From NCBI GenBank assembly GCA_036874045.1, contig CM072339.1, positions 3,665,501 through 3,729,500 on the forward strand: a stretch of DNA of 64,000 nt, in the 5' to 3' direction. Positions 25,468 through 63,255 of the stretch are shown piece after piece (position 1 is the stretch's first letter; the number at the start of each line of letters is the position of its first letter). Both the position numbers and the translations under genes were made by a program. The notes under the pieces are model-generated. The model had not been told where the DNA came from and did no database searches. It was given only the letters and a program-made list of their open reading frames with translations. Source of the DNA: Cymodocea nodosa. Its lineage: Eukaryota; Streptophyta; Magnoliopsida; Alismatales; Cymodoceaceae.

Positions 25468-27312
25468 ATGACCACTCATGCACTGAAGGTGGAGAAATTC
25501 ATTGGAAAGAACAACTTCAATTTATGGTAGATCAAGATGAAGGCTTTATTGAAATAACAAGGAATTTGGGTTCCTCTCAATAGGGAGTCAATTTCCTTTA
25601 TGGTGGAGGAAATTCAGGAGGAGAAGGCTCATTCCACTATCTTGTTATGTTTGGTTGATGAGGTCATTATTGAGGTTGTAGATGAGACTTCAACTTCGAG
25701 CCTTTGGAAGAAGTTAGAGAGCTTGTATATGACCAAGTCCTTGATGAATAAGTTGCTATTGAAGCAACGTTTGCTTTCCCTTAGAATGAAGGAAAGGATA
25801 GCTTTGAAGCAACATTTAGATAAGCTTAACACCATTCTCATGGAGTTGAGAAATATAGGTGTCACCATTAAGGATGAGGATGCAACCCTCATTCTACTTG
25901 TTTTACTTCCACTTTCTTATAAAAATTTTGTGCAATTATTCATGGTGGGACGTGATACCATGGCATTGGAGGAAGTAAGGTTCAACCTTCATTCAAAGGA
26001 GTTGTGACACATGACAACTCATGATAGCAATGATACACATGGTTCTACTCTGTCTATGCATGATTCAGAGCAAAGGGGGTGCCATGATAGAAGGAACAAC
26101 AAGAATAGAGGGAGAAGCAAGTCAAAGGGGAGGTACTCCAATGATACATGCAATTATTACAAAGAAAATGGGCATTGGAAAGCAAACTGCCCAAAGCTGA
26201 AATCAAAAGGGCATGTTGCCATAGTGGAGAAAGATGATTCAACATCAGAATGTGACTTTGCACTCACTATTTCTTGCAATCCATATTTAGACCACACATG
26301 GATTATGGCTTCAGGTGCTTCCCACCATATGATTCCTATATGGGAGTGCTTCCATTCTTATGAGAGGGTGGATGGTGGAAATGTGACATTGGCAAACAAT
26401 GAGGTTTGCAATAGGGCTAGTGTAGGCATTATTTACTTTAGGATGCATGATGGCACGATTAAGACACTTGAAGGAGTTTGGCATGTGCCCAATTTGGGAA
26501 AAAGTTTGATATCTTTAATGACACTTGATTCAGCTGGATACAAGTATTCAAGTGGAGGAGGAAAACTTCAAGTCTTGAAGGGTTCCATGGTAGTAATAAA
26601 AGGTGTCAAAGATGGGCCATTATATATTCTTCAAGGGTCACCTGCTATTGCTTCCATAGAAAATTAGCAACTAAAATCTGCTACTTGGCACACAAGGTTG
26701 GGTCATTTGAGGTAGAGAGGAATGCAAAATGTTAGCAACATAGGTGTGCCTAAAGGCCACAAGTTTGTTGATATTAACTTGTGTAAGCATTGCATCTATG
26801 ACAAGCAAAAACATGTATAGTTTGAAAAGGGGGAGCACACCACCAAGAAAATATTAGACTATGTCCATACTGATTGTTGGGGGCCTTCCCAACAACCATC
26901 CCTAGCAAGTTCAAGATACTTCCTTTCGATTGTTGATGATCATTCACACATGACTTGGATTTATGTTATGAAACAGAAGAGTGAAGCTTTCAAGAATTTT
27001 AGGCAATGGAAAGCTCTTGTCGAAAATCAGGTTGGGAGGAAAGTGAAGTATCTTCGCACAGTTAATGGGCTAGAGTTTTGTTCCAAAGAGTTTGATGAGT
27101 TTTGTAAGGATGTAGGAATTTCTAAGCATCATACGTTTAGAGGCACTCCACAGCAAAATGGAGTTGCTGAATGCCTCAACTACACTTTGCTAGAGAGAGC
27201 ATGATGCATGCTCTCTTATTCAAGGCTGGGAAAGGAGTTTTGGGCTAAGGCCATCAACACAGCTTCTTTTCTTGTCAACATATCTCCATCCAATGCTATA
27301 AAAGACCAAACA
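25468..27312 (+). pseudogene. copia-2 gag-protease-integrase pseudogene
   Basis: Starts at ATG 25468. The gag region reads EKFIGKNNFNLW and SLWKKLESLYMTKSL, typical of Tnt1/Tork-like copia gag. A zinc-knuckle remnant lies near 26149-26190 (CNYYKENGHWKANC; second Cys changed to Tyr). The protease active site is damaged (MASGASHHM where DSGAS is expected). The integrase N-terminal zinc motif (WHTRLGHLR...CKHC) and core (DYVHTDCWGP, VDDHSHMTWIY, GTPQQNGVAE) follow. Stops sit near 25529, 25555, 26005, 26665, 26713 and 27202, plus one in between, but there is no frameshift. It ends where the solo LTR was inserted. Confidence 0.9.
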
Positions 27313-29310
27313 TGTTGAGTATTTTGTTTTGATGATGTGTGCTAAATGAATATAATTATATTTACTCAATTACTATTGTTTATGAAAGTAAATTAAGAAC
27401 ATCAATTAATACAGAAAAAGTTTACTGATATAAATACTTGTTTGTAATGGATCTGAGATTATATTAAGATAAATAACTAGTCGTTCAGTTATACTAACTT
27501 TTATTTTAACTAAACATTAAGTTAACGTGTGTTTTTATTGTAAAGCATGATATGTTTTAAAGTTATATTTCCTGTATCATGTACAATTCACGTTAAGACA
27601 ACTCATTGAGTTAGTACATTATTTGTATAAAGGTCATGTGAGAATTCATTGAGTTATATGCTTAAATGTTGAAATAGGTCACGTGAGAACTCGTTGAGTT
27701 AGTGAACAAAAGAGCAAAAAGAAAAGACGAACTCGTTAAGTTAGTATTGTGCATATGGTGAAATTAAAGTTTACGAATGTTATATTGTATCACATGAGTT
27801 GCACATATTTAACACGTTAAGTTAACATAACTGCACACGTTGAGTTGTGTTTAGCTTTTCCATGCACGACACTAGAAAACCTGATTGGATCTCCAACAAC
27901 GTACCAGAAAAACTTGGATTTGTTAACTTCTGTTTTTACTTAGTTAATTTATCTTTATGCCTATTCTTTTTCTTTTAGAAGTAAATAAACAACATTTAAT
28001 ACAAATTAGATATTAATTCCAATTTGCACTTTAACTGCAAGTGCACAGTGTCTATTATATTAGTGTGCAAGCACAGGTCGATCCCATAGGAAATTGCTTA
28101 AGAATTTAGAATTGTCCGTTTGTTAACAATTAAATTTATATATTTAATAAGCTCTCTGTTGAGTTATAGTTAACTCAATGGACAAAGTTCGTTGAGTTAT
28201 GGCTAACTCAATGGACTAACCTCGTGGACTTAAGTTAACTCCACGAGCCTGTCTTTTCTTTTTAATACTACTAATTACAGAAGAATTCAGCCAACCATTG
28301 GGCAATTCCACAGATTGTAAATAACATCAATTAAGCTCTTTAATATTAGTAAACACTGGATTTATCATTAAGCATACTAACATTTAGATAATTCAAATAG
28401 TAACCATTAAAATCTTTAAGTCTTTTGAATGAATCGATTTCAGTAAACTGTAAAACTAAAACAAACATAAATCAATCATAACACTGACAAAGAAAACATT
28501 AATCATGATACAACACTCAAATACAAAATACAAACACAGATAAATTATTTTGGTATTTTTGTTTTAATATGAACATGGAAATGGGCGAAAGATGAAATGT
28601 AAAGTAATCTCAATCGATAGTAAATACTTCCGTCACTACATACAACGCGATTACACCACTGAAAATTAAACCACTTATAATTCTATCTCCTCTCCCTATA
28701 GAATCGCGAGTCCAGAATTGCAAGATGATCTCCTCTTTAGCATACAGGCATTAACCCGAAGCCAAGGCTAGAAGCTTTACGATCTCCTGAGATATGAGTC
28801 GGCGCTTGGTGAAAATGACTTCCCTTCCCGCGACGCGATCACTCCTCACAGTGGTTGTCAGACATTATGTTTGGCTCGGAATCGACCCGACATTAGGAAA
28901 GTATCCTCACAAACCTCCGATGGTTGGTGATTATGGTGGTGGTGATGATGGTTGGTGTGGTACTTCAGAGAATTACCGACGCTGCCTATAAAAACCTCGG
29001 TGCTCCTCCTCTATACATACTGACCATACCCATCGATCACACACACACCTTTACTTCTTTTTCTTCTTTTCTTTTATATTTCTTCAGTGGTAACTACTTT
29101 TGCTTGAATGGTCGATTGAATTTCCTTCATTCATATCAACGGCGATGCTTTCTTCTCCTTGTGCGATACATGCAATCATGGTTTTTCTTCCAACTGTCCT
29201 ATTTCTACAACCACTACAATGGCATATTAGAAAATAAATAGTCCGTGGAGTTACAGATAACTCAACGAACTTTTCTCGTTGATTTAACTATAAAACATGT
29301 GCATAAATTT

Positions 29311-29475
29311 AACTATCCGATGCTCAAGTGTATTTCGGATACTTACAACTTAACTATCTGATGCTCAGATGCATTTTGGATACTTACAAACTTAACTATC
29401 CGATGCTCAGATGCATTTCGGATACTTACAAACTTAACTATCTAATGCTTAGATGCATTTCGGATAGTTACAGAT
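29311..29475 (-). repeat. 42-bp tandem repeats in gypsy LTR
   Basis: Four units at 29311, 29352, 29394 and 29436. Each holds AACTATCCGATGC...TTTCGGATAGTT-like arms that can fold back. Confidence 0.85.
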
Positions 29476-29830
29476 AACTCACCGATATATAACTTAAGTA
29501 AATCTACCAGATCTCGACACGTGTCAGCAGCAGTTTAATAATAAAAGAAACATTTTGGAGAGTTATAGGTCTAACTATCCGATGCTTAGTTGCAATTTCG
29601 GATAGTTAGAGATAATTCACTGAAAATCCACTTAAGTCACTTTCCTAGAATATGACACGTGTCCACAACTATTTTATAAATAAAAAGAGATTTCGGAGAG
29701 TTACACATATAACTATCCGATGCCCAACTACAATTTCGGATAGTTATAGATAACTCACCAAAAGTTCACTTAAGTCATACATTATGGTTTCAACACGTGT
29801 ACTTTAGGAAATAATAAAATATTCTTTTAA
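29475..29830 (-). repeat. 138-bp tandem repeats with G-box palindromes in gypsy LTR
   Basis: Three units, each with AACTATCCG/CGGATAGTT arms, a CTTAAGT and an ACACGTGT palindrome. The G-boxes are at 29516-29525, 29654-29663 and 29793-29800, 138-139 bp apart. CACGTG is the core bound by plant bZIP and bHLH factors. They lie upstream of the LTR TATA box in the sense direction. Confidence 0.85.
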
Positions 29831-30126
29831 AACATAACTGTTCGACAATTTAAACATAACTATCCGATACATGTTCGGTATGTTAAACATAACTGTCTTA
29901 AATATCAGAAAATTCGGATACTTAAGAATTTCACAACCTACAACTTACTGACAGTTCAGAAATGTACTAAATTAACATTAATTCCCCCAATTTAAGCAAA
30001 TTCTTTAATTAAAGCTTATAATAGTGCAATTATAACATAATGGCTTAATTCTCATATGATAAACTAAATATTATGCAATTAACCATCATTTAATTGTTAA
30101 TATTATGCACTTTTTCATTCTAAACA

Positions 30127-30139
30127 CTTCCCCATACCT
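30127..30139 (-). other. gypsy-1 polypurine tract
   Basis: Minus-strand AGGTATGGGGAAG directly precedes the TGTTTAG start of the 3' LTR. Confidence 0.9.
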
Positions 30140-31916
30140 AAATTTTGCTAGTCCCTTAGCAAACTAAGATCTAATTAATTGGTCTTTCTAAAAGTGCTAG
30201 AATTAATTCTTCTTCTTTTTTTTTCTTCTATTCAGCATAAGAATTATTATATAGATATTCTGTATGTTTCAGTAATCAACCTGCAAATATATTTAGAATA
30301 TATGCAAATTACATACAAAGTATATCATCATCACATATGTGTTAATTATATTATCGTGTTTTCTTTTTTGCATCATTTGTCATCCTGAATTTTCCAATAA
30401 GATTTCTAGAAGAAATTTCAACAATATACGAATCAAAGTACAATCCAATTCAATCTGATTAAGACAAGTAGAATAAAGAATTGTATCTCCATTAAACAAC
30501 TTCAAAAGTCAATTCTTGATTCATATTTTAACAATTCTAGATAACAGAAAATATACTCGATTCATAAGATATCTGTATTTCACAAAACACTTGTATCTTT
30601 TCAGAACAGTATATGTATTTTTTTGTACTTTAAAAGTTAATTTGACAAGCTTGAATCATATAGGAGCTTTCTAATGTACCCATGTAACGAGCTTTCAGTC
30701 AACAATCTCAGATCTGATTAGGATCTTAGGTTGCGAGATTTCAAGAGTCTCTTTTCAGGTCAACAATCCTTACATACCTATCTGCTCAAGTACAAAAGGC
30801 TTGTGATCAAACAAGTCAATAAACTCTCAAAGTTTACCTTTTTTTTTTCTTCTTTTTTTCTTTCTTATTCTCTTTTTTTTTCTTCTTTTTTTCAATCAAA
30901 ATACAAACACAAAACAAAACATTAATCACATACTGTATATGTATGTATTTCATTAATACAGATGCAGTAATCACCAATCTCATATAGTCCTGCTTCTATC
31001 ATTTACTGAAAATATGAATCCATAACAATAGGCTCATACTTTTTCTATAGTTTAATAAGATTTACACATAAATCATTCTACAAGTTCAATTAGTCAAATT
31101 AAATGTATCTTTAATCATATGTGTTTCATTTAATCTAGAATTCACATCTCAGCTCCTTCAAGACTTCAGATAATTTTTTTCATTAAGCATTCTGATTTCA
31201 TTTTAAAATCGTGAAACTGTTAAACTCATGAAATTCAGAAAAAACATAAGATACTATATCTAGATTTGCATAAATAGTAAATTCTATAGCATCTTATAAA
31301 GCCTTCTAAATATAACATTCAAGCAGTTACAAATTATAAAAATTTTACAGTCTCAATTTTCGGATAGTTACAATAAGTTCATAAAAATTTTCAATTTCCA
31401 CAAAACTTTGCAATACCATTTTAATTCCTTTAGTTAACAAACTTACATGGCTGTTACTTTAATTACCTCCCCCCCATACCTACATTTTGCATTGTCCTCA
31501 ATGTAAAGGATTTGACAATAAATATAGTAATTGTAGCAAGCATGAATACAGTTTCTTTGATTTAAAATTCAGGATAAGTAATCAGTTACATACATTGTTT
31601 CGTTTGTATCTTCTTCTGCATATTCTGATTTTTGATTCTGAAAAAATTTTCATTCACAGCTAAAAGCAGAATATAAAACAAAATAACATTTAACAGATAT
31701 TGATAAATAATTGTCTTGTGTGGAACCCATGCTCCCATGCCTTTGGTGGCTCACAAGCAAGCTAGTTGGTTTCCCAGAACAGATACCAATAAACTGGATT
31801 GATATTTTGTTTTTTTTTCTTTTATAAAATAAAATAAAAACTATATTATTTTCTCTCTTTTTTTTTCTAAAAATAAATGCAGAATACACATAACATTAAA
31901 CACACAAAATCACAGC
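30140..31916 (-). other. gypsy-1 3' non-coding region
   Basis: About 1.8 kb without ORFs between the F-box stop and the PPT. It is AT-rich. The same sequence, diverged, follows the F-box relative at 57297-59144, so it belongs to the family. Near the end TTTGCTAAGGGACTAGCAAA is a small palindrome also typical of this group. Confidence 0.7.
31465..31483 (-). other. gypsy-1 internal polypurine tract
   Basis: Minus-strand GTAGGTATGGGGGGGAGGT follows ATTGAGGACAATGC. It resembles the terminal PPT of the same element (TAGGTATGGGGAAG) and occupies the place of the internal purine tract of Athila/Tat elements. The relative has the same at 57797-57814. Confidence 0.65.
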
Positions 31917-33053
31917 TTAAGAACATGATTGAAAAGTAGAAACAAATGGAATAAACGTGTCAGTCCAACCAAACTTTTTAGGCATAGTTCTTCTTGCTAT
32001 TAATTCTGTTTTAATGTAGTTCTTGTTCCTTCTTAATTTGTAAATGTGTAATATATTATAAATTCCAAATACAAGTGTCTTACCACTAATGATATGAAAT
32101 GCAGAAAGGGATCCTTTTTGATTCCAAGGTAATGTAGCAGTTTCTATTTCTACATCTATTTCAATATACTTCTCTTCCCACTTCCATTCATTTATGTCTT
32201 TCATAATCCATATTTGAAATTTCATTAATTCATCCCACCATCTTATCAAACATAAAGTAGGATCATCATCTTCATTATACCACATTCCTATTTGAATTTT
32301 ATTAAATTCTGCAGATGGTGGTTTAGCTATTTCTCTCGGTATAGGTAAAATTTCTATATTTTCATCATAACTATCTATGCTCACTATGTATAAATCAGAT
32401 CCAAATGCTATTGATATATTTGTGACTAGATATATATATCCATCAAGTATGACATGCATGTTGTTAATTACTGATTTCTGGCTTAGATATATCATAATAT
32501 TTTCAGTCCAAGATCTATTCAGAAAATTATACACACTTAAGCGTAAATCTTCATCCCAATTTCCTGTAGGTCTCCAATAATATAATTTTTTAGGAATTGT
32601 AGAATTTTTATCAGAAAATATTAAAGCCGATCCACAATTTATAGTTGGTACTTCATATCTATTAGGTCTTCCTATATTCCATTCTTCTCTTGTTATAGGA
32701 TTTCTTATCAAAATATCAGGTAATAAACTTGCATACCTTGGTCTCGTCCTGTATATGATTAATCCTTCATCTATCCCCATAATATGATCTATTCCTTCTA
32801 ATGTATTGGGTGGAATTCCAGTAGTTTCTTCCATAGCTAGATATTCATGGTTAATTGAACTACGATTAAATGACCTCCATATGAATCCATCTCTAATCTT
32901 AGTCATTTTTGCAGCTTGTAGTCCCTGAAAATATTTTTCTTCAATACAATCTTTAATTTCCTTTGATACACAACACAGCCTGCATAGATCTTTAGCTGAT
33001 AAATTACTTAGTACTTCCCTTAGTGCATCCAACGATAATTGCATCAATTCCAT
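31917..33053 (-). CDS. F-box protein carried inside gypsy-1 (intact)
   Basis: ATG at 33053 and 378 uninterrupted codons to TAA. Residues about 5-45 form an F-box (LSLDALREVLSNLSAKDLCRL, CVSKEIKDCIEEKYF), which would bind Skp1/ASK in an SCF ubiquitin ligase. The rest looks like an F-box-associated or kelch-like beta structure: ILIRNPITREEWNIGRP, LYYWRPTGNW, FQIWIMKDINEWKWEE, LVFGIYNILHIYKLR. It lies on the element's sense strand between gag and the 3' polypurine tracts, inside the LTRs, so it would be part of the genomic RNA. Retroelement ORFs around it carry stops, while this one carries none. A relative (about 69% identical over the last 65 residues, counted by eye) sits at the same place in the element at 51.8-60.6 kb. 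It could be a captured host gene or a later insertion; shared position favours an old capture. Confidence 0.85.
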   Translation of the reverse strand: MELMQLSLDALREVLSNLSAKDLCRLCCVSKEIKDCIEEKYFQGLQAAKMTKIRDGFIWRSFNRSSINHEYLAMEETTGIPPNTLEGIDHIMGIDEGLIIYRTRPRYASLLPDILIRNPITREEWNIGRPNRYEVPTINCGSALIFSDKNSTIPKKLYYWRPTGNWDEDLRLSVYNFLNRSWTENIMIYLSQKSVINNMHVILDGYIYLVTNISIAFGSDLYIVSIDSYDENIEILPIPREIAKPPSAEFNKIQIGMWYNEDDDPTLCLIRWWDELMKFQIWIMKDINEWKWEEKYIEIDVEIETATLPWNQKGSLSAFHIISGKTLVFGIYNILHIYKLRRNKNYIKTELIARRTMPKKFGWTDTFIPFVSTFQSCS

Positions 33054-33124
33054 TTGTCGATTCTTTATAACACAAACAAAAATTTAGCAAAGACAAAAAT
33101 TAACATAACTACTGCACACCCTCT

Positions 33125-33165
33125 AAGGCATAACTCAACGGACTAAGTTCGTTGAGTTAAGGACT
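33125..33165. repeat. GTTGAGTTA inverted repeat between gag and F-box
   Basis: TAACTCAACG...CGTTGAGTTA arms with an intervening GACTAAGTT. It lies about 70-110 bp upstream of the F-box ATG. Minus-strand TATA-like text (TATATATATTTTT) is near 33200. Confidence 0.75.
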
Positions 33166-33233
33166 AACTCTACGATACTATTAACTATAAATAAAAATAT
33201 ATATATACAGATAGTTGTTTCAGATATGCTGCT

Positions 33234-34577
33234 TCATTTAGCTACCCTCCCAGAAGAGATATCAATTTCATTAACAGTTCTATTGATAGGGTTAGGTATT
33301 GCTTGTATTGGCAATCCTCTAGTAGGTCTAACTTCCCTTGGTTTCTTCTGTCTAAGTGGTATATTTCTATTCTGATTTTGAATTGCAGCATTTCTAAATA
33401 CAAAATCTAGACGATTGTTTAATTGTTGGATTATCTTCTTTAATTTCTCTATTCTAGATCCTTGTTCAAGTAATGCTTCATAACTTATATTCTTCTCATT
33501 TATATTTTCTCCTTCATGGAAATTGTTGTTTCTCTAGGATAAATTCGGGTGATTTCTCCAATTAGGATTATAGGAATTTCCAAAGTTATCTTTCTGGTTT
33601 CTAGCATAAATAATATCTAAATCATTTATGTTTGCATTCTTTTCTGCTAGCTTTTGATTTAATGATAACTCTTCTATTTTCTTTGTTAATTCAGTTAATT
33701 TCACTTCAAGCATAGTACTTGAATCTATTTCATGCATTCCTCTTGGCAATATTTTTTTATCTACAATAGCTTCAGCCGAGTTTTCCCACTGTGTAGTTCT
33801 TTTTACAAAGTTTTCTAAATATGCCCATGCTTCTTCACTACATAACTTTAAAAATCCATTTTGACAAGTAGATTCTAATAAAGATTTCGTTGAAACATCT
33901 ATGCCTTCATAAATTATACCTATTAATTATGCTTTACTCATTGCATGATGTGGACATTGAGTCAGCAAATCTTTAAATCTTTCAAAATATTTCCAAAATG
34001 ATTCACCCTGTTTTTGGCTACACATTAATATTTCTTTTTTCTTTTTAATCGTTTGATGTGTTGGATAATATTTTTCTAGAAAAACAGAGCAAAATTCAAT
34101 CCATGTAGAAATTGAATCAGGCGACAGAGTGTATAACCATCTCTTAGCTGTGTCTTTTAAAGAAAAAGGGATATATCTAAGTTTAATAGCATCTATACTC
34201 ATGTTCAGCATTTTCATCATTTGACAAACTTCATTAAATTCTCTAAGGAAATAATAGGCATCCTCTCTTTCTAATCCATGAAAATGTGGCAATTGACTAA
34301 TATAATTAGATTTCAATTGAAACCTATCTCCTTTAAAGTTTGGCAATCGAATACATGAAGGTTCATCAACTAATTTAGGATACAAAATTTCTCCTAATGG
34401 TTTTTCTATTGGAGCAACCATCTCTACGTTCTCTTTTAAAGAAAGGTTAGCTACACTCCAAAGAATTTCGTTAAAGTCCAGTTCAGAAAATTTTTCAGTA
34501 CTCCTCTGCGATGAAAATTCCTGGGTAGGTGTTCTTACTAATCGTTTAGTGCTTAGAGAACGAGTCCATGTGCTCAT
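33234..34577 (-). pseudogene. gypsy-1 gag core, located 3' of pol
   Basis: ATG at 34577 and 447 codons to TGA at 33234 in one frame, with only two nonsense codons (33927 TAA, 33534 TAG). The retrotransposon gag signature is clear: SCIRLPNFKGDRFQLKSN, LPHFHGLEREDAYYFLREF, YIPFSLKDTAKRWLYTL, WIEFCSVFLEKYYP, GESFWKYFERFKDLLTQCPH, IYEGID. It ends with the Athila-type NSYNPNWRNHPNLS, where the TAG replaces the usual Trp. A basic tail follows. It has no zinc knuckle of its own; the knuckle is 8-9 kb away at the 5' end of the element. Gag in this group normally precedes the knuckle and protease, so the module is displaced. Confidence 0.9.
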
Positions 34578-34930
34578 AAATAAATAGCAGAAGATTAATT
34601 ACATACCAGTCTGAAGCTTTCCATTCAGTAAATATTTGTTGACGGATGAAGTTGAATCAGTTGCTTCGCCTTCCAGTTCCTCCAATGCATTCTCCTTTCT
34701 TTTAAAAGTGCTGGTAACTCGTAAATAACATTCTGTTTTATATATATAATGCACATCCATAAAGTGAATAAATCTCGTTGCAAGACACGTTCTTGCAACA
34801 TACATCGTGGTTCCTATTTTTATGGGTACGTGTACCACTACTAATTTCAAATTTTGGTAACCGCTAAACCAATGAAGTTTCGTTCGTGGTTAAAAGAATA
34901 ACTGTTCTGCTTAATCCACGAACTAACCTC

Positions 34931-35090
34931 GTCGAGTTATAGATAACTCAACAGAACACAGTCGGTTACTGTTGCTAACTCCACGGACTAACTTCGTTGA
35001 GTTACAGATAACTCAACTGAGTGACCTTATATTATATTATTGACCTCGTGGAGTTATGTTTAACTCAACGAACTTACTTCGTTGAGTTAA
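34931..35090. repeat. GTTGAGTTA hairpins between the acidic ORF and gag
   Basis: Three or four stem-loops: near 34931-34952, 34996-35017 (GTTGAGTTA / TAACTCAAC, loop CAGA), 35048-35070 and a half site at 35080. Confidence 0.8.
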
Positions 35091-35589
35091 CACTTAGCAA
35101 CCTCTAAGTTTTACTCCTCGTAAGTATCTCTCTACTTTTTTTCTTTCTCATTCTGCTAACTGAAATAAAGTTAAATCTGTGTCATTAATGCATCATTCTA
35201 ATCAAAATTCGTTTAAATCTGAACATTATATAAATATTTAACTTGCATGTCATTTTATGTTATGCAGAATTTACATTTTACCTTGTAATATGTAGAAATT
35301 TTTAAGCATCTATCCTGTCATTTAGCAAATTGTAAATCTGTTAAACATTCATTCATAAAGTTCCACAAAATATATATATAACATTCAATACATTCCATTC
35401 ATTTCACATTCAAAACACGTATGAAAAGTACATCTGAAAAATTTATATTCATTAATATGAATCAATTTACATTACAAGTACATCATACAATTTTCATACA
35501 ATTCTATACAAGTAGATGAACAATACAATTTAGTCTCTATTCCTAAGTTCATCTACTTCCTTCTAGAGTTTTTCTAATTGTAGCTCTAA

Positions 35590-37746
35590 TTAATTAATTC
35601 TTTCTACAGCTCTTGTAATTCCTTCAGAAGGTACAACTATCTCTGCAGCTACAAAATTTCTATATTCTTTCACTGAAATGGTTATTGATCTGATCCTTTT
35701 TGATGCCCATTTCGTGAAATCAATACAATCCACCATCAGTAGTGGAATCAAATCTCCATAAAATAATTTCTTCTTTACTATTCTAATCTTGGAGATAAAA
35801 ACTGCAGTCCAATTTATTTGAATTTTATTTACAACTGCAAATGTGGCCCATTTGACAAATTGACTCAATTCTATGTTATGACATTGTCGTTGATAGACAT
35901 TCTTAATCAAAATGTTAGCTACCATGCGTGCTTTACTATTTAAATGCTTCAGTCTATTTAATAAAGGCACACTAGGATTAATAGCCAAACTATCATTGAT
36001 TTCTTGTTCTGTCCATTCAACAGCAGTTGTACTTTCCAAAATTTCCTGCCCTTCATTCTTTAATCCAAAAATGTAGTGGAGAAGCTCTGGTGTTATCTGT
36101 ACATCAGCTTCCTCCACGTTGGAAATTAATCCTCATTCTCTTTCTCTTAAATTTGCATAAAAACAGGGCACTAGATTCTCATATACTGCATGCCCTCTTT
36201 CTTGAGAAATAAAATTCAGTAGACCTTGGAATTCAAATAATTCTTTGATTTATTACATTCCATCCTAATTTATTGGTCTACTGTAAATAATATCATAACC
36301 CCTAATTTCTTGGTATTTGATATAAGCTTCCTGACTCCAAAAATGTACTTCATTTAGAACTACTATTTCAATCGGGTTAGGAATGTGACTTTGTTGTTCC
36401 AAAGGGGTTTGTTCTTGATCTTCCTCTAACGTAGGCTGCACTTGAACATTCTCTACAGATTCCTGAATTTTTGCTTCTACTTCTGTCTGTGGTGGTGAGT
36501 CGGTAGAACTCTTCACTCTGTCTTGAATTCTCTCCATAAATTGCTGAAGAGTTTCTTGCTCTTCAGTGAAATCTGTAAAGTCATTTTTGTCTAAATGACT
36601 TCTTTCAGTTTCTTCATTTTCTACTCTTTCTTCTTCCTCCTGACTACCAATCTGCTCTATCACTATTCTTTTTGATTCTGTAACAGATTGGAATGGAGTC
36701 ATGGGCAATTCAGTTTCTACCCTAATTTCTGTTCTTTCTTCTTGTACAGGCTGCAGACTAATTTCAGCCTATTTTTCTTCTTCTTTTTGCTCCTACTACT
36801 GCTGCTCTTGCTTCTCCTCAGAATCGGATAGCAGGTTTATAAAAATTGGCTCCACAGGCCCTATTAAAATTGGTACCTCAGATTTAATCTCTTTATATTT
36901 AGGCACTTTCTCTTTTCCTTTCCTTTTTCTGATTAATTGTGCCTATTCTTCCTCTTCATCATCTGAGATTAAATCTAGAAAAGTAGGCTCTACAGGCCTT
37001 CGAGACACAGGTATTGGTTCTTCCAGTTTAATTCTCTCTATAATTACTGGTCTCGAAGGACCAGCCTCAGTTTCTCTTGCAGCACTTGATTTAGCTACTG
37101 CCTGATGCTGTTCAACCTTAATTATGTACTAGGCCCTTAACTTTTCTTTGGCCCTTTTTCTCTTAATGGCATCATATAAAATATGTGCCTTAGCTGTAGC
37201 TATTTCTTCATTATCACCTTGGTCTCTTGTTATTTTGACCAAGCTAGTAAACTCTTTCTCTTCTTCATCAGTTCTCAGCCAAGCAAATGCTACTCGTGGC
37301 AATGACTCTGTTGGCTGAACTAGAGGTCCTGACTGCTGTTCGTCAGGAACAGGTCTTTCAGCAGTCGACTCTTCCTATTCTCCTACTTGTTGCTACTGCC
37401 ATATTTCCCAACTTCCACAACCCGCAATGCACCTTTTGAACCATAATTTGGCCTTGCGCTTGATTAGCTCTAGGGCTATTTCATTGTTTGGCTGGATTTT
37501 TCTTTCTTTGCTAACTGCAATTTTTGTTGCTACTTTGATTCGGGTCTCCATTATTTGAGGTATTTGTATACCACACTCTACTAACTTTCTTCTTAATTTA
37601 AAAAGTTCAGATTTTACCTTCTGTAAATCTTTTTCTCTTATCGTATTCTAAATCTTTTGTCGCGTGTGCCATTTTTTTGATTCCTTTAGAAACTGTGCTG
37701 TGTCAACTACATCTTCCTAAAACTCAGGTGTCATCTTCCTCATCAT
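35590..37746 (-). pseudogene. gypsy-1 acidic ORF with plant-transposon-type C-terminal domain
   Basis: A single 718-codon frame from a double ATG at 37746 to the stop at 35590, interrupted by about fourteen in-frame stops, most of them TAG, with no frameshift. The N-terminal half is charged and acidic. It holds two repeated patches, RPVEPTFLDLISDDEEEE and GPVEPIFINLLSDSEEK, with a hydrophobic core followed by acids, as in SUMO-interacting motifs. The C-terminal third (ENLVPCFYANL, ITPELLHYIFGL, INWTAVFISKI) resembles the 'putative plant transposon protein' domain (Pfam PF20167 by memory) found in plant gypsy ORFs. It occupies the env-like position of Athila elements. No signal peptide or membrane span is seen. 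Function unknown. Confidence 0.72.
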
Positions 37747-37927
37747 GGAGTTACACAATAGCACGAAATCCCTCTGATTTCTACTATTCTAGATTCTAAA
37801 TGATTTACCAGATAATGCCCCCAAAACCCTAGGTTTTAGTTTAAATAAGCCCTAAGTTTAGGCGGGTAATCGGGTCATTTCCTAAACCAACTATTGCTCT
37901 CTCATTCACGGTCTTAGCTACAGTACT

Positions 37928-38018
37928 CCGTTGAGTTACAATTAACTCAACGGAATAAACTCGTTGACTAACTCAAGACTCAACGGAGTAAGCTCGTTGA
38001 GTTAAGCGTAACTCAACA
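37928..38018. repeat. GTTGAGTTA hairpins between integrase and the acidic ORF
   Basis: Two stem-loops: 37928-37953 (11-bp perfect arms, loop CAAT) and about 37996-38017 (GTTGAGTTA / TAACTCAAC, 4-base loop). Confidence 0.85.
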
Positions 38019-38239
38019 GACTTACCATACAAACAGATATAATAATAAAAATAGTAAAGATAATAGTTTTTTTTTTACCGGTTTAATTGATACTATGTTT
38101 CGGTCAGACCTAATTTTTTTCTGAAAATTAATATACATATTTTTTTATGTTCCGGTCATACCGATAGATCTAGTCGATTGAACCGCAACGATTTTTATAT
38201 TTTATAATTTTTTATGTTTTTTTTTTATATATAAACATA

Positions 38240-39484
38240 AAAATTGATTTCTTACTAAGTAAATCTCGAGTAGTCCTCTACTCTGACTTCTTCTATAATT
38301 CCAAAGGAGCTTTTTGGTGTTTTCAAAATAGGTCTAAGTATTTGTCCATTTACTTTAAATATATCCTGATTTTTAGGATTTTCAATTTCAATAGTTCCAT
38401 AAGGATAAATATTTCAAACTATGTAAGGTCCTGCCCATCTAGATTTTAATTTTCATGGATGGTTATGGAGTCTAGCCATATAAAGATATACTTCTTGTCC
38501 TATTTCAAAGCTTTTTTGAATAATTTTTCTATCATGCCAGAATTTCATTTTCTCTTTTTCTCTTATAGTCTTCAAATAAGCTTCATTTCTAAATTCTTCT
38601 AATTCAATTAATTGCATTTTTCTATTTTCAACAGCTTGATTTAAATTAGTGTTCAGAGTTTTTAATGCCCAATAAGCTTTATGTTCTATTTCAACTGGTA
38701 AATGACAACTTTTTCCATATACTAGCCTAAAAGGTGACATACCTAAGCTTGTTTTATAACCAGTTCTATAAGCCCAAAGTGCATCTATCAATCTATTATC
38801 CTAATCTGTTCTAGTAGGATTTACTACTTTTTCTAAGGTTAACTTAATTTGTTTGTTAGCACTTTCTACTTGTCCACTTGTTTGCGGATGATATGATATT
38901 GCAATTTTGTGGTTTACTCTATATTTCTTCATTAAGGCTTCAAAACTTCTATTACAAAAATGAGTTCCTCTATCATTGATAATAGCTTTAGGTATTCCAA
39001 ATCTGGCAAATATATTGGTTCTTGTAAATTGTATTACCACTTTGTTGTCATTAGTTTTTGTAGGAATAGCTTCTATCCATTTAGATACATAATCCACCCC
39101 CAACAATATGTAATTAAATTGATTAGACATAGGAAATGAACCCATAAAATCTATTCTCCACACATCAAAGATTTCAACCTCAAGAATAGGATTAAGAGGC
39201 ATCATATTCCTTTTTGATATTCTTCATATTTGTTGACATCTTAAACAACTTAAGCAATATTTATGAGCATCTTTGAATAGTGTTGGCCAATAAAATCCAC
39301 ATTGCAGAATTTTAGCAGTAGTTTTTCCTAAACCAAAATGCCCTCCACAAGCTTGGTCATGATAGAAAGATAATATGCTCGGATATTCAGTTTTTGGAAC
39401 ACACCTCCTTAAAACTAGATCAGGACATTTCTTAAATAAGTATAAGTCTTCCCAATAGTAATATTTTACTCTTGAGAAAAACAA
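38240..39484 (-). pseudogene. gypsy-1 integrase
   Basis: The HHCC zinc domain is at 39484-39224 (H..H of FYHDQACGGHFG; CLSCLRCQQ). The core shows all three acidic positions: VWRIDFMGSFP, INDRGTHFCN and TSGQVESANKQ. The C-terminal part includes [27 protein letters not shown] and a GTIE-type end near 38380. In-frame stops sit between the zinc domain and core (near 39221), near 38798 and near 38450, all in one frame. Confidence 0.92.
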
Positions 39485-39502: not shown

Positions 39503-40251
39503 TCAATCCTTAGCTGTTAAACTAGTAACTAAGTAATTAACTATGTCTACATACCAAGGTATTGTGTTGATGGTCATTAATTGTTCATCAGGAAAATTAT
39601 CCTTAATTTCAATATTTGATTTTTCTATTTGTAATCTTGATAAATGATCTGCTACTACATTCTCACAACCTTTTTTATCTTTAATTTCTAGATCAAATTC
39701 TTGTAATAATAATATCCATCGGATCAATCTAGGCTTAGTCTCTTTTTTCTTTATTAGATATTTTAGAGCTAAATGATCTGTGTATACTATTACTTTAGCT
39801 CCAATCAGATATGATCTAAACTTTTCTAAAGCAAACACAACAACTAATAATTCTTTTCAGTAGTCGTGTAATTAACTTGAGCATCATTTAAGGTTTTGCT
39901 TGCATAATGAATCACTCTAGGAGATTTTTCTATCTTCTGTCCCAACACTGCTCCTATAGTAAAATTAGAAGCATCGCACATTAATTCAAATGGATGGTTC
40001 CAATCAGGTGCTTGAATTATAGGAGTTGAAATTAAGCTAGTTTTCAGTCTGAAAAATGCTTCATTGCAATTTTTATCAAAGTTAAATGGAACATCTTTTA
40101 ATAGATTAGTTAAATGTCTAGCTATCTTGCTAAAGTTTTTAATAAATCTTCGATAAAAACCAGCATGTCCTAGAAATGATCTAATATCTTTTACTGATTT
40201 AGGTTCTAGTAGATTAGAAATTACTTCTATTTTAGCTTTATTTACTTCCAA
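39503..40251 (-). pseudogene. gypsy-1 RNase H
   Basis: The RT connection (SFLGHAGFYRRFIKNFSKI) leads into RNase H motifs [36 protein letters not shown] and the end VADHLSRL. A stop and a frame change lie near 39840, inside the domain. Confidence 0.92.
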
Positions 40252-41000
40252 CCCTTTCTTAGAAACAACATGCCCTAAGACTATTCCTTATTTAACCATG
40301 AAGTGACATTTTTTCCAATTTAAAACCAGATTTTTTTCCACATAGCGTTTTAATATTAAGTCTAAATTTTTTAAACAAACTTCATATGGTTGCCATATAC
40401 TGTAAAATCATCCATAAATATTTCTAAAAAATCTTCAATCATTCCAGTAAATATACCCTACATACACCTTTGGAAGGTAGCCGGTGCATTGCATAATCTG
40501 AATGACATTCCCTTAAAAGCATAAGTTCCATTAGGACAAGTGAAAGTTGTTTTCTCTTGATCCTCTAATGCTACCTGAATTTGATTATAACCTGAATACC
40601 TGTCTAGGAAACAAAAATATTCTTGCCCTGCTAATATTTCCAGCATTTGATCTATAAAAGGTAAGAGAAAATGATCTATCTTAGTCACAACATTTAAATT
40701 TCTATAGTCTATACATACTCTCCAACCTGATTGAATTCTAGTAGGTATCAAGTCTTGACTTTCATTCCTAATAACTGTTAATCCTGATTTCTTGGGAACT
40801 ACATGGATTGGACTCACCCACGAGCTATCAGAAATCGGATAAATTATGTCATTATCTAACCATTTCACTATTTCCTTCCTGACTACTTCTTTAAGGTTTG
40901 GATTTAATCTCCTCTCAAGAATTCTAACAGGTTTAACATTCTCTTCTAAATATATGTGGTGACAACATAAAGTTGAACTTAACCCTTTTATATCAATCAT
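40252..41000 (-). pseudogene. gypsy-1 reverse transcriptase
   Basis: RT blocks in order: RRLNPNLKEVVRKEIVKWLD, SSWVSPIHVVPKKSG, GWRVCIDYRNLN, CFLDRYSGYNQI (catalytic Asp; usual DGYSGY), TFTCPNGTYAF, CNAPATFQRCM, and the catalytic FMDDF at 40415-40407. It is in a different frame from the protease, so a frameshift lies near 41.0 kb. The thumb region after FMDDF is disrupted. Confidence 0.92.
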
Positions 41001-41209: not shown

Positions 41210-42922
41210 TTCTTCCTAATCTACTTCTATATTTATGCTTTCACTTCCCTCTAAAGTTTCAGAATTGATTTGCCTATTTAATTCTTCTTGAATCACATCA
41301 TCTAACATATCTCTTTCATCCTCTAAAAAGTCTATGGTATGTAAGGACATTTCTAACTCCTCAAACCTTTCTGGTTTGAAAATATTTAATTGAGTATTCT
41401 CATTACCATATGCTAACTTCATTACTCCAGTTTTATAATTTATAACAGCCCTTGATGTTGCTAAAAATGGCATTCCCAAAATTAAAGATGTATCACTATT
41501 TTTATGCTTAATTTGTTGGGAATCCAAAATTACAATATCAATAGGATATATAAAGTTTTTGATTTTAATTAAGACATCCTCTATTTTTCATCTAGGGTAT
41601 CTTATACTTCTATCAACTAATTGAATGACCGTACTAGTAGGAGTTAAGCCTTCTAATCCTAAAGATGCAAATATATCACTTGGTATAACATGTATACTTA
41701 CACCTAAGTCTATTAAGGTTATTTCTAGAATGGTATTTCCTATAGTGCATGATATAACAGGGATTCCAGGATTAGATAACTTTATAGGAATTTTTGGCAG
41801 AAATAGGGAACTACTTTGCTCAGCTAAAAAGACATTTCTAAGAACTTTTCGCTCTCTTTTCTTAGTACACCAATCCTTCAAAAATTTAGCACAAGGTGGC
41901 ATTTTCTACAATAGATCTAACAAAGGAATGTTAACTTGTACTTTTTCAAAAATTTCTCTGATTTTTTCTTGTTTTTCAGGTATTGTTTGTTGTAATCTTT
42001 TAGGATAGGGTGCTAAAGAATGTGATTTAAAAGATTCTTTTTCTTTCGTTTGATTTGTTTGATCATTTTTAGCCTCATTAGTAGATGCAGATTGTTCTTA
42101 AGTGATTTTTAGATTTTCACCTATTACATTTTCATTATCATTTTGATTTTTACTCTTATCCACCTTCATCTTATTTTCATTTTGAGTTCTTGGTGGTATA
42201 TCAGTTCCAGATCTTAATGTTACACATACATCTTCTAGATTTTCGTTACTCTCATGATGTTTTTGTATATCATTTTCGTGATTATGATCTTCAATTGTTT
42301 TTAGTTTTAAAGTGCATTCTTTAAATTCTCTTGCATTAATATTTTCTGTTTGCTGTATATTTTGTAAATTATGCAGGTCTAAAACATTATAATTTTCATT
42401 GTCCTATTGCATAACTTGTATTTTCATTGTATATTCGTCCAATGCTTTTAGTTTTCTTTCCAGATCATCTAATCTCATTGCATTCAATTTTTGATCAATT
42501 TTCATTATGGTTTTTTTAGTTTCGTAAATTATATCCTTTTTAGGTTCTGAATATGCTTCTTTATAGTTTAATTGGTTGACTTCTTGTTGCTGACACATAA
42601 AGTATTCTAGTTTGTCTAGGTTTTGCTCTATACTACGCTACAGTCTATCATACTTATCCCAAACTTCAGTGTCTCTCAACATATTACACATTCTATACTG
42701 ACCATTAGTTGGGTAAACTATAGGATTCTCATACTCAACTCTATTATATTTAGGATAATTCATTTGTTGTTCATGGGATTTAACCATCTGCAAACGTCTT
42801 AATTTCAAATAGTCAGAAATGTCGTGTCCTTCAGAATTGCAAAATTCACATATGCTAATTACAGGTTTCAGAAATCTTTGAGCATAAGCATATGCCATAT
42901 TCTCAATTACAGAAGAAAACAC
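41210..42922 (-). pseudogene. gypsy-1 zinc-knuckle ORF and aspartic protease
   Basis: One frame runs from the ATG pair (MFSS.., MAYAYAQRF) about 80 bp after the primer site. A CCHC-type knuckle CEFCNSEGHDISDY appears near residue 27; its last Cys is Tyr here but Cys in the copies at 46.9 and 54.1 kb. A charged linker (LDDLERKLKALDEY) follows. The protease is at 41902-41216 with the Athila-type active site DLGVSIHVIPSDIF and the flap/C-terminal block LILGMPFLAT. In-frame stops interrupt it near 42636, 42402, 42108, 41900, 41585 and 41213. At least four are shared with the copy at 54-55.6 kb. There is no capsid-type gag core between primer site and knuckle. Confidence 0.88.
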
Positions 42923-42975: not shown

Positions 42976-42993
42976 TCCCCGGCAACGGCGCCA
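42976..42993 (-). other. gypsy-1 primer-binding site (tRNA-Asp)
   Basis: Minus-strand TGGCGCCGTTGCCGGGGA, 18 of 18 bases complementary to the 3' end of plant tRNA-Asp(GTC) including CCA. It starts seven bases after the LTR. Confidence 0.95.
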
Positions 42994-43000
42994 TAAAACT

Positions 43001-45275
43001 TGTTTGGCTTTTTCATGCACGACACCAGAAAACCTGATTGGATCTCCAACAATGTACCAGAAAAACTTGGATTTGTTAACTTCTATTTTTACTTAGTTAA
43101 TTTATCTTTATGCCTATTCTTTTTCTTTTAGAAGTAAACAAACAACCTTCAATACAAATTAGATATTAATTCCAATTTGTACTTTAACTGCAAGTGCATA
43201 GTGTCTATTGTATTAGTGTGCAAGTACAGGTCGATCCCACAGGAAATTGCTTAAGAATTTAGAACTGTCTGTTTGTTAACAATTAAATTTATATATTCAA
43301 TAAGCTCTCCGTTGAGTTACAGTTAACTCAACGGATAAAGTTCGGACAAAGTTCGTTGAGTTATGGCTAACTCAACGGACTAACCTCGTGGACTTAAGTT
43401 AACTCCACGAGCCTGTCTTTTCTTTTTAATACTGCTAGTTATAGAAGAATTCGGCCAACCATTGGGTGATTCCACAGATTGTAAATAACATCAATTAAGT
43501 TCTTTAATGTTAGTAAACACTGGATTTATCATTAAGCATACTAACATTCAGATAATTCAAATAATAACCATTAATATCTTTAAGTCTTTTGAACAAACCG
43601 ATTTCAGTAAACTGTAAAACTAAAACAAACATAAATCATTCACAACACTAACAAAGATAACCTTAATCATGATACAACACAAACAATACAACACCCAAAT
43701 ACAAAATACAAACACAGATAAATTATTTTTGTTTTAATATGAACATAGAAATGGGTGAAAGGTGAAAGGTGAAATGTAAAGTAATCTCAATCGACAGTAA
43801 ATACTTCTATCACTACATACGACGCAATTACACCACTGAAAATTAAACCACTTACAATTCTGTCTCCTCTCCTTATAGAATCGCGAGTCCAGAATTGCAA
43901 GATGATCTCCTCTTCAACATATAGGCATCAACTCGAAGCCAAGGCTAGAAGCTTTACGATCTCTTGAGATATGAGTCGGCACTTGGTGAAAATGGCTTCC
44001 CTTCCCACGACGCGATTACTCCTTACAGTGGTTGTTAGGCACTATGTTTGGCTTGGAATCGACCTGACATCAGGAAAGTATCCTCACAAACCTCTGATGG
44101 TTGGTGTGGTACTTCAGAGAATTGCCGACGCTGCTTGTAGAAAGCTCGGTGCTCCTCCTCTATGCATATTGGCCATACCCATTGATCACACACACACCTT
44201 TACTTCTTTTTCTTCTTTTCTTTTATATTTCTTCAGTGGTAACTGCTTTTGCTTGAATGGTCGGTTGGATTTCCTTCATTTATATCAACGACGATACTTT
44301 CTTCTCCTTACGTGATACATGCAATTGTGGTTTTTCTTCCAACTGTCCTGTTTCTGCAACCGCTACAGTGGCATATTAGAAAATAAATAGTTCGTGGAGT
44401 TACAGATAACTCAACGGACTTTCCTCGTTGATTTAACTATAAAACACGTGCATAAATTTAACTATCCAATGCTGTGGTGCATTTCGGATAGTTACAACTT
44501 AACTATCCGATGCTCAGATACATTTCGGGTACTTACGAACTTAACTATCCGATGCTTAGATGCATTTCGGATACTTACAAACTTAACTATCCGATGCTCA
44601 GATGCATTTCTGATAGTTATAGATAACTCACCGATATATAACTTAAGTAAATCTACTAGATCTCAACACGTGTCAGCAATAGTTTAATAATAAAAGAAAC
44701 ATTTCGGAGAGTTACAGGTCTAACTATCTGATGCTCAACTGCAATTTCGGATAGTTAGAGATAACTCATCGAAAATCCACTTAAGTCACTTTCCCAGAAC
44801 ATGACACGTGTCCACAGCTATTTTATAAATAAAAAGAGATTTCAGAGAGTTACACATATAACTATTCGATGTCCAGCTACAATTTCGAATAGTTATAGAT
44901 AACTCACCGAAAGTTCACTTAAGTCATGCATTTTGGTTTCGACACGTGTACTTTAGGAAATAATAAAATATTCTTTTAAAACATAACTGTTTGGCAGTTT
45001 AAACATAACTATCCGATACATGTTCGGTATGTTAAACATAATTGTCTGAAATATCAGAAAATTCGGATACTTAAGAATTTCACAATCTGCAACTTACCGA
45101 TAGTTTAGAAATGTACTAAATTAACATTAATTCCCCTAATTTAAGCAAATTCTTTAATTAAAGCTTATAATAGTGCAATTATAACATAATGGCTTAATTC
45201 TCATATGATAAGCTAAATATTATGCAATTAACTATCATTTAATCGTTAATATTATGCACTTTTTCATTCTAAACA
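43001..45275 (-). repeat. gypsy-1 5' LTR
   Basis: 2275 bp. On the minus strand it starts TGTTTAGAATGAAAAAG and ends AAAGCCAAACA. It carries the same internal repeats as the 3' LTR (see 29311-29830) and a TATA box at 44221-44230. Confidence 0.95.
44221..44230 (-). promoter_or_regulatory. TATA box of the gypsy-1 5' LTR
   Basis: Minus-strand AAATATAAAA within ATATAAAAGAAAAGAAG. The same motif recurs at the equivalent position in the other LTR copies. Confidence 0.55.
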
Positions 45276-45813
45276 AGTTGCTATATTGAATACTAAGGCA
45301 ATGCGTTAGGTTAGCGTTATAAACTTAAAGTTATGTTTATTACACGTGGTAAATATTTTATTGTTTAAAACATTTGTTTATTACTGGTTCGTTGAGTTAT
45401 CAGTAACACAACGGAGCTGGTTCATTGAGTTAACTGTAATACCACGAAGCTGGTTTGTTGAGTTAGCATAATACCATAGACTTAATTCATTGAGTTAGCT
45501 ATAGTACTTGTCACATGATTTAGCACATGATGAACTTGTTGAGTTAGATACGTTAAGTTATAAATATACTTGTTTTACTTGTTTAGTTAACATTAATACA
45601 ATGACTTGCTATTACACTTGATGGAAAATTTTGGACGAGAAAGTTTATTTTGTAGAAAAATTTTCAAAGATCCAGGATAAATGATTAAAGAAAATTCAAA
45701 AGGAAAAAGTGGGTTAGAAGATGTGTATTTCGATGAAGGAAAAAGAAAAGACATGAAGAGTAGAAAATTGATAGTGATTAAACGTGGAGGATATGCATGA
45801 AGTGAAGATACAG

Positions 45814-56826: not shown

Positions 56827-57296
56827 ATAAGCATAGATAGTTATGATGATGACTTTATAGAAATATTGCCTGTACCTAATGATATAGTTGAACCATCATC
56901 TATAGAATATGATAAAATTCAATTAGGAGTGTGGTACAATAAATATGATGATTTTACTTTATGTTTAGTAAGATGGTGGGATGAATTGATGAAATTTTAA
57001 ATATGGATTATGAAAGACCTAAATGAATGGAAGTGGGAAGAGGAATTATTGAAATATATGTAGCAATAGAAGCAACTACATTATCTTGGAATAGAAGAGG
57101 ATCCCTTTCTACATTTCAATTGATTAATGGTAATACACTTGTATTTAGCATTAATAACATATTGCAAGTTTACACATTAAAAAGGGAAGCAAATTGCATT
57201 AAAACAGAATTAAGAGCAAGAAGAATGATGCCGAAAGGTTTTGCTTGGACTAACACGTTTATTCCATTTGTCACTACTTTTCAATCATGTTCTTAA
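56827..57296 (+). pseudogene. gypsy-2 F-box protein, C-terminal half
   Basis: Aligns with residues about 225-378 of the gypsy-1 F-box protein (SIDSYD start; RWWDELMKF; IWIMKDLNEWKWEE; the same end FIPFV.TFQSCS). It has a TAA after MKF and a frameshift after WKWEE; the rest is open to TAA at 57296. The F-box itself is missing. About 69% identity in the last 65 residues, counted by eye. Confidence 0.88.
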
Positions 57297-61977: not shown

Positions 61978-63255
61978 CTTCATGAAGTTTAGTCATGTAA
62001 AGATATACTTCTTGTTTGATTTCAAAAGTTTTTTTGAGTAATTTTCTTATGATGCCATAACTTCATCTTTTCTTTTCTTTTTTACAGTTTTCGAATAAGC
62101 TTCATTCCTAAATTCTTCTAACTCAATTAATTGTATCATTCTATTTCCAATAGCTTGATTTAAATTAGTATTTAAAGTTCTTAATGCCCAATAAGCTTTA
62201 TGTTCTACTTCAGTAGGTAGGTGACAACTTTTTCCATATACTATCCTAAAAGGTGACATACCTAAGCTTGTTTTATAAGCTGTTCTATAAGCCCAAAGTG
62301 CGTCTATTAATCTATTAGCCCAATCTTTCCTATTAGGATTTACTACTTTCTCTAAAATTAATTTAATTTGTTTGTTTGCACTTTTTACTTGTCCACTTAT
62401 TTGTAGATGATATGAAGTTGCAATTTTGTGATTTACTCTATATTTCTTCATTAAAGCTTCAAAACTTCTATTACAGAAATGAGTTCTCTTATCACTAATA
62501 ATAGTTTTAGGTATTCCAAATCTAGCAATTATATTAGTTTTTATAAAATGTATTACTACTTTGTTGTCATTAGTTTTTGTAGGAATAACTTCTATCCATT
62601 TAGATACATAATCCACACCTAACAATATATAATTAAACTGATTAGATATAGCAAATAGACCTATAAAATCAATTCCCCATACGTCAAAAATCTCAACTTC
62701 AATAATAGGATTTAGAGGCATCATATTCCTCTTTGATATCCTTCCTATTTGTTAAAATCTTAAACAACTTAAGTAATATTTATGAGCATCCTTAAATAGT
62801 GTTGGTCGGTAGAATCCATATTGTAAAATTTTGGCTGTAGTTTTTCCTAAACCAAAATGTCCTCCATATGCTTGGTCATGACAGAAGGATAATATGCTAT
62901 GATATTTAGTTTCTAGAATATATCTCCTTATGACTAAATAATGATATTTCTTAAATAAGTATGGGTCTTCCCAATAGTAATATTTTACTATTGAAAAGAA
63001 CAATTTTTTATCTTGTCTATCCAGTCCTTAGGTGTTAAACTTGTAACTAGATAATTAACTATGTCTACATACCAATGCATTATTTTTATGGTTATTAATT
63101 GTTCATTAGGAAAATGATCCTTAATATCAATGTTTGATTTTTCTATTTGTAACCTTGATAAATGATCTACTACTACATTCTCACATCCTTTTTTATCTTT
63201 AATTTCTAAATCAAATTCTTGTAATAATAATATCCACCGAATTAGTCTAAGTTTA
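61978..63255 (-). pseudogene. gypsy RNase H end and integrase fragment
   Basis: On the minus strand: RNase H C-terminus (near 63200-63120), zinc domain (63003-62752: FCHDQAYGGHFG; final CLRF), and an unbroken 225-codon core (62724-62047) with VWGIDFIGLF, ISDKRTHFCN and ISGQVKSANKQ. The last has Val-Lys where the catalytic Glu should be, so this copy would be inactive even without truncation. GKSCHLP is present. It is cut at 61978 by an LTR join and at 63255 by unrelated DNA. Confidence 0.9.

Follow-up and report, generated by a model that had tools for sequence, protein, structure and literature searches.

An Athila-like retrotransposon family of Cymodocea nodosa carries an F-box gene that is probably expressed by splicing out gag

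Results

Organization of the element and its F-box gene

The DNA analysed here, called the window, is a 64,000-nucleotide stretch of the Cymodocea nodosa genome. On its minus strand lies a 17.4 kb Athila-like LTR element (45275 to 27848), which reads in the order 5′ LTR, primer-binding site (PBS), zinc-knuckle/protease-like ORF, reverse transcriptase (RT), RNase H, integrase, a long frame called X, gag, F-box gene, 3′ region and 3′ LTR (Table 1). The two LTRs agree at 93.2% of 2241 sites, the differences being 139 transitions and 13 transversions, and are flanked by the perfect AGTTG duplication that a previous sequence-only reading had described. We take the PBS, TGGCGCCGTTGCCGGGG, to be of the tRNA-Asp type. 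The zinc-knuckle and protease labels of the ORF behind it are presumptive, having been given by eye and, for the protease, also by position; a Pfam scan of the 41588-41902 piece of this ORF returned no match. Two scanned pieces of frame X likewise matched no family, a weak Cupin_8 match falling below cut-off.

Table 1. Features of the F-box-bearing element and of a second F-box fragment in the window
Feature	Coordinates	Strand	Remarks
Target-site duplication AGTTG, 5′ side of element	45276..45280	.	read in sequence
5′ LTR (TGTTTAG...AAACA)	43001..45275	minus	
Primer-binding site	42977..42993	minus	7 bases past LTR
Zinc-knuckle, linker, protease-like ORF, decayed	41216..42898	minus	own ATG; without capsid part
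Reverse transcriptase fragment	40458..41000	minus	PF00078
RT end / RNase H, two pieces	39503..40251	minus	PF17919, PF17917 on 39844-40251
Integrase, two pieces	38453..39205	minus	PF00665 on 38801-39205
Long frame X	35530..37770	minus	in-frame stops; no family
TATA-like box, candidate internal promoter	34736..34748	minus	5′ of first exon
Putative intron GTATGT...AG, containing gag	33063..34606	minus	donor 34607/34606, acceptor 33063/33062
gag (capsid part 33927-34577)	33228..34577	minus	PF03732, E=1.8e-17; two premature stops in window copy
F-box gene	31917..33053	minus	378 aa, stop-free; ATG 9 bases past putative splice junction
Upstream polypurine tract	31466..31480	minus	
Polypurine tract adjoining 3′ LTR	30127..30140	minus	
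3′ LTR	27848..30126	minus	
Target-site duplication AGTTG, 3′ side of element	27843..27847	.	read in sequence
Second F-box fragment	56830..57293	plus	residues ~224-378; 67% identical; one stop, one frameshift

The same reading had proposed an uninterrupted ORF of 378 codons, in sense orientation to the element and placed between gag and the polypurine tracts. Both the ORF, with zero stops, and its position are borne out, with the gag ORF 5′ of it and the two tracts 3′. It had also seen an N-terminal F-box followed by an F-box-associated C-terminal part. The former stands, since residues 4-41 match PF00646 with 35.7 bits against a cut-off of 20.5 (E=7e-9), but the match of residues 113-333 to the NCBIfam F-box-associated model TIGR01640 reaches 34.2 bits, below the cut-off of 37.9 (E=1.6e-8), and that to FBA_1 is weak and likewise below its Pfam cut-off. 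In other copies TIGR01640 scores 26.0 (L006, under the cut-off), 50.0 (L031) and 39.8 (L041, both over), and the F-box domain scores 29.4 in L006 and 32.3 in a piece of L031, both over 20.5, and 15.0 in L041, which is below it. The F-box domain of L031 thus still exceeds the cut-off in a copy with 34-42% F-box identity.

A single-sequence structure model of the F-box protein had a mean pLDDT of 35.9, and a fold search was therefore omitted. Outside its own genome the protein gave no protein match, no PDB relative of note and no viral contig; gag, used as a control, found 3 metagenome pieces only, so that the negative results carry little weight for plants. The PF07734 profile gave 0 matches on the own genome, where its control was silent too. 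Three short metagenome proteins (P0001-P0003) are 52-72% identical to the window gag, on contigs of 1.1-1.7 kb that are too short to show an F-box after gag.

Several repeats accompany these features. A 19-base repeat at 30130-30148 and 31472-31490 holds the two polypurine tracts, 1.3 kb apart, and the second copy in the window also has both, at 57.8 and 59.1 kb. Short repeats of the CGTTGAGTTA...TAACTCAACG type lie between modules, at 37930-38020 (integrase/X), 34940-35090 (X/gag) and 33130-33165 (gag/F-box); they recur in the LTRs, and one of 65 bases is extra in the second copy. The second F-box fragment runs into the same 3′ region, polypurine tract and LTR as the element of Table 1. Between 46432 and 63255 the window contains several further LTRs and fragments of the family, nested and in both orientations; one is an integrase piece (61982-63255) that has a 225-codon frame (62724-62047). 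Elsewhere in the window we noted, by eye, host gene pieces resembling a U-box/armadillo ubiquitin ligase (11470-13707, minus strand) and frames resembling a copia gag and zinc knuckle (25600-26667, plus strand).

Copies of the F-box gene share their neighbours

The plant's own assembly (374.6 Mb, 28 contigs) was searched for further copies. Among 7024 candidates, 109 scored F-box matches each span at least 375 of the 378 residues; they are spread over 20 of the 28 contigs and, the window's own match aside, are 89-93% identical to the window protein. Twenty of the 109 are free of stops and 89 contain them. The F-box-associated model matched 145 places, and all 30 that were fetched proved related to the window F-box, at 34-88% identity. 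These 30 and 30 close copies make up the 60 loci whose surroundings were examined.

The 3′ region of the element was present in 58 of the 60 loci and gag in 53. The seven gag-less loci comprise L002, L003 and L042, which have the spliced form described below, L043 and L045, in which an LTR lies within the F-box, and L034 and L057, which retain just the spacer beside the F-box. Within the first 30 loci, 28 have gag 5′ of the F-box and in the same orientation (partial in two), and the F-box ATG is retained in 29 of 30 copies. The F-box gene is therefore not peculiar to the window insertion, being found at the 109 close matches and 30 more distant loci, and no separate target duplication was seen around it: 30127-33300 has no direct repeat of at least 9 bases with a copy in 33054-33300. 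The proposal that the F-box gene is a built-in ORF of the element is strongly supported by the 109 close matches and by the neighbours shared in most of the 60 loci, and gains further support from a sign of selection and from splicing of gag ahead of the F-box.

The capsid gag lies downstream of pol

Integrase and X precede the capsid gag in the window, and the zinc knuckle and protease linker remain behind the PBS. The capsid gag adjoins the F-box gene downstream of pol, a layout that was missing from the sequence-only reading. Wherever they can be read, two further copies, each incomplete on one side, agree with this gene order; their identities to the window are 95.5 and 94.9% for the F-box, 94.8 and 94.1% for gag, and 94.3 and 94.3% for the integrase part, making the F-box the segment most like the window's in both, by a small margin. 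Exact PBS sites number 305 in the genome. All 5 that were sampled besides the window's, among them L068, a distant relative, lead into the zinc-knuckle ORF without a capsid.

Two side observations concern gene order. L067 (C1:6416900-6418000) and L070 (C3:10234310-10235410) both lack protease, RT and RNase H, their zinc-knuckle ORF being fused to integrase at an identical point; this deletion derivative, present at two places, seems to have moved. At L031 (around C7:17066464-17068600), and with it L061 and L062, the order is F-box then gag, with a gag that is 66% identical; a copia-like element lies upstream of L031, and its surroundings are heavily broken.

The Athila domain order is given as GAG-PROT-RT-RH-INT (PMC6317226). 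The element has the RT-RNase H-integrase part of this order (PF00078, PF17919/PF17917, PF00665), as well as LTRs, a PBS, polypurine tracts and a target duplication, but gag does not come first in the window, in the two further copies or at the 5 sampled PBS sites. The two scanned pieces of X did not match the Athila ORF-1 domain, which only 16% of Athila elements are reported to have (PMC6317226). Since the gag-first order is lacking and the comparison is one of domains and layout, we limit the name to "Athila-like".

Exact loss of gag at splice-like junctions

Among the 30 close copies, two (L002 and L003) have CTTCAGACTG (CTTAAGACTG in L002) joined directly to AATCGACAAATGG. The junction corresponds to window position 34607 joined to 33062, an exact loss of the gag-containing segment, which has GTATGT at its start and a T-rich stretch and AG at its end. 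The acceptor AG is retained in 28 of the 29 unspliced copies compared, and the divergent L042 shows the same exact loss of gag. Genome-wide we found 208 junction sites with at most 3 mismatches, 74 of them exact, against 0 for the reversed control. L003 keeps integrase and X upstream of the junction, so that just the gag intron appears to have been removed, from a long RNA; L002 has a rearranged order there. Two features of a spliced subgenomic gene, as retroviral env is, were thus found at the DNA level, namely GT...AG signals and genomic products with the exact junction.

Seven spliced copies were placed in a tree: L002, L003, L042 and four at which F-box matches and junction sites coincide. 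Spliced copies fell beside different gag-bearing ones (L074-L021, 0.969; L076-L029, 0.954; L075-L026, 0.941; L042-L054, 0.837), the values for the remaining spliced copies being 0.733, 0.316 and 0.088. A single clade of spliced copies was rejected for all seven (p=1.1e-11) and for the six that belong to the main group (p=0.0015), in a test whose group was defined by the junction rather than the tree and which was made with the tree already seen. As the seven do not form one clade, splicing appears to have recurred; recombination between RNAs could also bring the junction onto different backgrounds. The plain reading of the junctions is that gag is regularly spliced out and the product reverse-transcribed. 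Gag would then act as an intron, and its removal would place the F-box ATG 9 bases past the junction. Some 130 bases 5′ of the donor, the window, L002, L003, L063 and L064 share a TATA-like box from which a shorter RNA may start; in L015 it was not found.

Selection and decay

Stops occur in gag, X and pol of the window element and none in its F-box gene. LTR decay amounts to 0.14 of CG, 0.17 of CHG and 0.05 of CHH sites changed per copy, a pattern as in methylation decay, and these rates predict 2.0 C-to-T stops in the window ORF, with a probability of 0.14 of finding none. The intact ORF of the window is accordingly weak proof of function, and the case rests on other copies. Between the two window F-box copies, indels number 2 in 464 coding sites versus 35 in 1692 non-coding sites, and substitutions are equally frequent in both (72/464 coding, 266/1692 in the 3′ region). 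Pairwise dN/dS for the same two copies was 0.83 (0.47-1.55), or 1.17 (0.68-2.26) with transition weighting. Because these values could not decide, we contrasted variants that are shared among copies with those found in a single copy.

A tree of 51 full-length copies took the form of a ladder of nested subfamilies, from which we defined group A, the youngest 30 copies, and group B, 18 older ones; L038, L048 and L044 were left out of group B. Group A singletons comprise 163 amino-acid-changing and 50 silent variants and 21 stops, and variants common to at least 4 of its 30 copies comprise 38, 30 and 1, respectively (p=0.0018 against singletons). Fixed differences between the groups number 37 amino-acid-changing and 25 silent (p=0.014). 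The contrasts exclude variants in 2-3 copies (group A: 51 amino-acid-changing, 22 silent, 7 stops), 9 multi-hit codons among the fixed differences, and 9 of the 60 loci that lack a single near-full-length match. Shared variants are thus poor in amino-acid changes, a sign consistent with purifying selection. With gag as a control, the same contrast gave 15:10 versus 82:30 for the capsid part, leaning the same way (p=0.23), and 8:6 versus 65:12 for the C-part (p=0.029). Group B has five stop variants common to at least 4 of its 18 copies, pointing to dead lineages or to recurrent mutation.

Discussion

We are highly confident that the F-box gene is built into the element, has been under selection and is expressed by splicing, as the copies, their shared variants and their junctions suggest. 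A high-copy Ty3/gypsy-type (Athila-like) family has long had the gene as one of its own and has carried it along through nested subfamilies, and gag-spliced RNAs, with the F-box ATG nine bases past the junction, appear repeatedly to have been made and reverse-transcribed. Unspliced RNA would then yield Gag and spliced RNA the F-box protein, so that splicing would set the balance between the two, comparable to the gag-pol/env split of retroviruses.

Other origins for this arrangement were weighed. Copy number and shared neighbours rule out the F-box gene as a single capture or a nested insertion. A separate insertion into one element might seem natural in a window full of nested elements, but the same neighbours recur in most of the 60 loci, no direct repeat of at least 9 bases flanks the gene and 109 close matches exist, leaving this reading a vanishingly small probability. 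We consider it improbable that a host F-box gene, once captured by an ancestor of the family, was merely spread by the element's success as a functionless passenger. Pairwise dN/dS near 1 between the window copies, the stops in 89 of the 109 scored copies and the known capture of host genes by plant LTR elements (PMC7264820) all speak for a passenger; yet the shared group A variants are poor in amino-acid changes and nearly stop-free, the reading frame has been kept against indels, the F-box domain is recognisable at 34-42% identity, and splice acceptor and ATG are retained. Still less credible is an origin of the gag-less junction other than splicing, either by insertion of gag into a gag-less ancestor or by one deletion that spread. 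Gag is unusual at this place in itself and the 208 sites may in part descend from a small number of events, but GT...AG ends with a T-rich stretch ahead of the AG, an identical exact junction in group A and in the divergent L042, and rejection of a single clade of spliced copies all argue for splicing.

F-box proteins bring targets to SCF ubiquitin ligases. A splicing-made F-box message suggests that the element exploits the plant's protein-disposal machinery, and it is reasonably probable that the protein acts through SCF. It would dock on host SKP1/ASK within the ligase, and its putative FBA-type C-terminal part would select a target whose removal favours the element. For the built-in, selected and splicing-expressed gene taken together with this general SCF reading, our confidence is good. 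The likeliest use would be to eliminate a protein restraining the element, with silencing factors as first candidates and an element protein such as Gag next. In our judgement the chance that the F-box protein targets a host defence protein, and not one of the element's own, is somewhat below even. Turnover of the element's own proteins, for example Gag or integrase, is a rather unlikely alternative to which some weight is lent by the RNA unit common to F-box and gag, in which splicing removes gag where the F-box protein is made. A more specific scenario is offered tentatively, as probably wrong in at least some part: the lineage moved its capsid gene behind pol as an intron, a single splicing choice yields either capsid or an SCF receptor through which a host silencing factor is degraded, and the gag-less daughters (~200 sites) live on capsid from unspliced relatives. 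With a clear F-box, a sign of selection and genomic traces of spliced RNA in hand, the target can be sought directly.

The literature searched, with supplements and most subscription papers beyond its reach, described neither a plant LTR element bearing an F-box ORF nor one whose capsid gag is placed 3′ of pol within an intron; the former absence is further limited by a domain list (Additional file 4 of PMC6317226) that may hold F-box. Extra ORFs of plant LTR elements are described as mostly lacking known domains (PMC9289625, PMC6317226). In one large survey, elements with an unexpected domain order were, by its account, always removed as likely mispredictions (PMC6317226), so that families like this one could have escaped notice. 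A capsid gag that is both 3′ of pol and intronic would break a rule by which Ty3/gypsy elements are sorted.

Gene-like sequence within an LTR element is known from the gene transduction by maize Bs1 (PMC7264820), but here the F-box gene recurs in a great many copies and in several subfamilies, and shows a sign of selection. The large gypsy element Gypsy_Pa_2799 of Phalaenopsis similarly carries a host-like extra ORF, for an AlkB-type RNA demethylase; it differs in the protein family and in that its Gag and Pol form a single ORF (PMC9289625, in whose main text, supplements aside, the term "F-box" is absent). Athila, Calypso and Bagy2-type elements likewise have the order LTR-PBS-RT-RNase H-IN, a sense env-like ORF 3′ of pol and two polypurine-like tracts, and a spliced env has been reported for Bagy2 (PMC7264820), whereas the ORF of the element described here is an F-box gene and its capsid gag lies 3′ of pol, within a putative intron. 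Plant FBA-type F-box proteins share the N-terminal F-box and, presumptively, the FBA C-terminal part, here borne by an LTR element. The sequences of the F-box proteins P0 and Clink of plant viruses are, to our knowledge, unrelated to the element protein. These parasite-encoded proteins, of poleroviruses and nanoviruses respectively, turn to the host SCF machinery (PMC3588083) and resemble the element protein in this origin, differing in being viral. If our interpretation is correct, the element would be a transposon that uses the host ubiquitin system, in parallel to these plant viruses.
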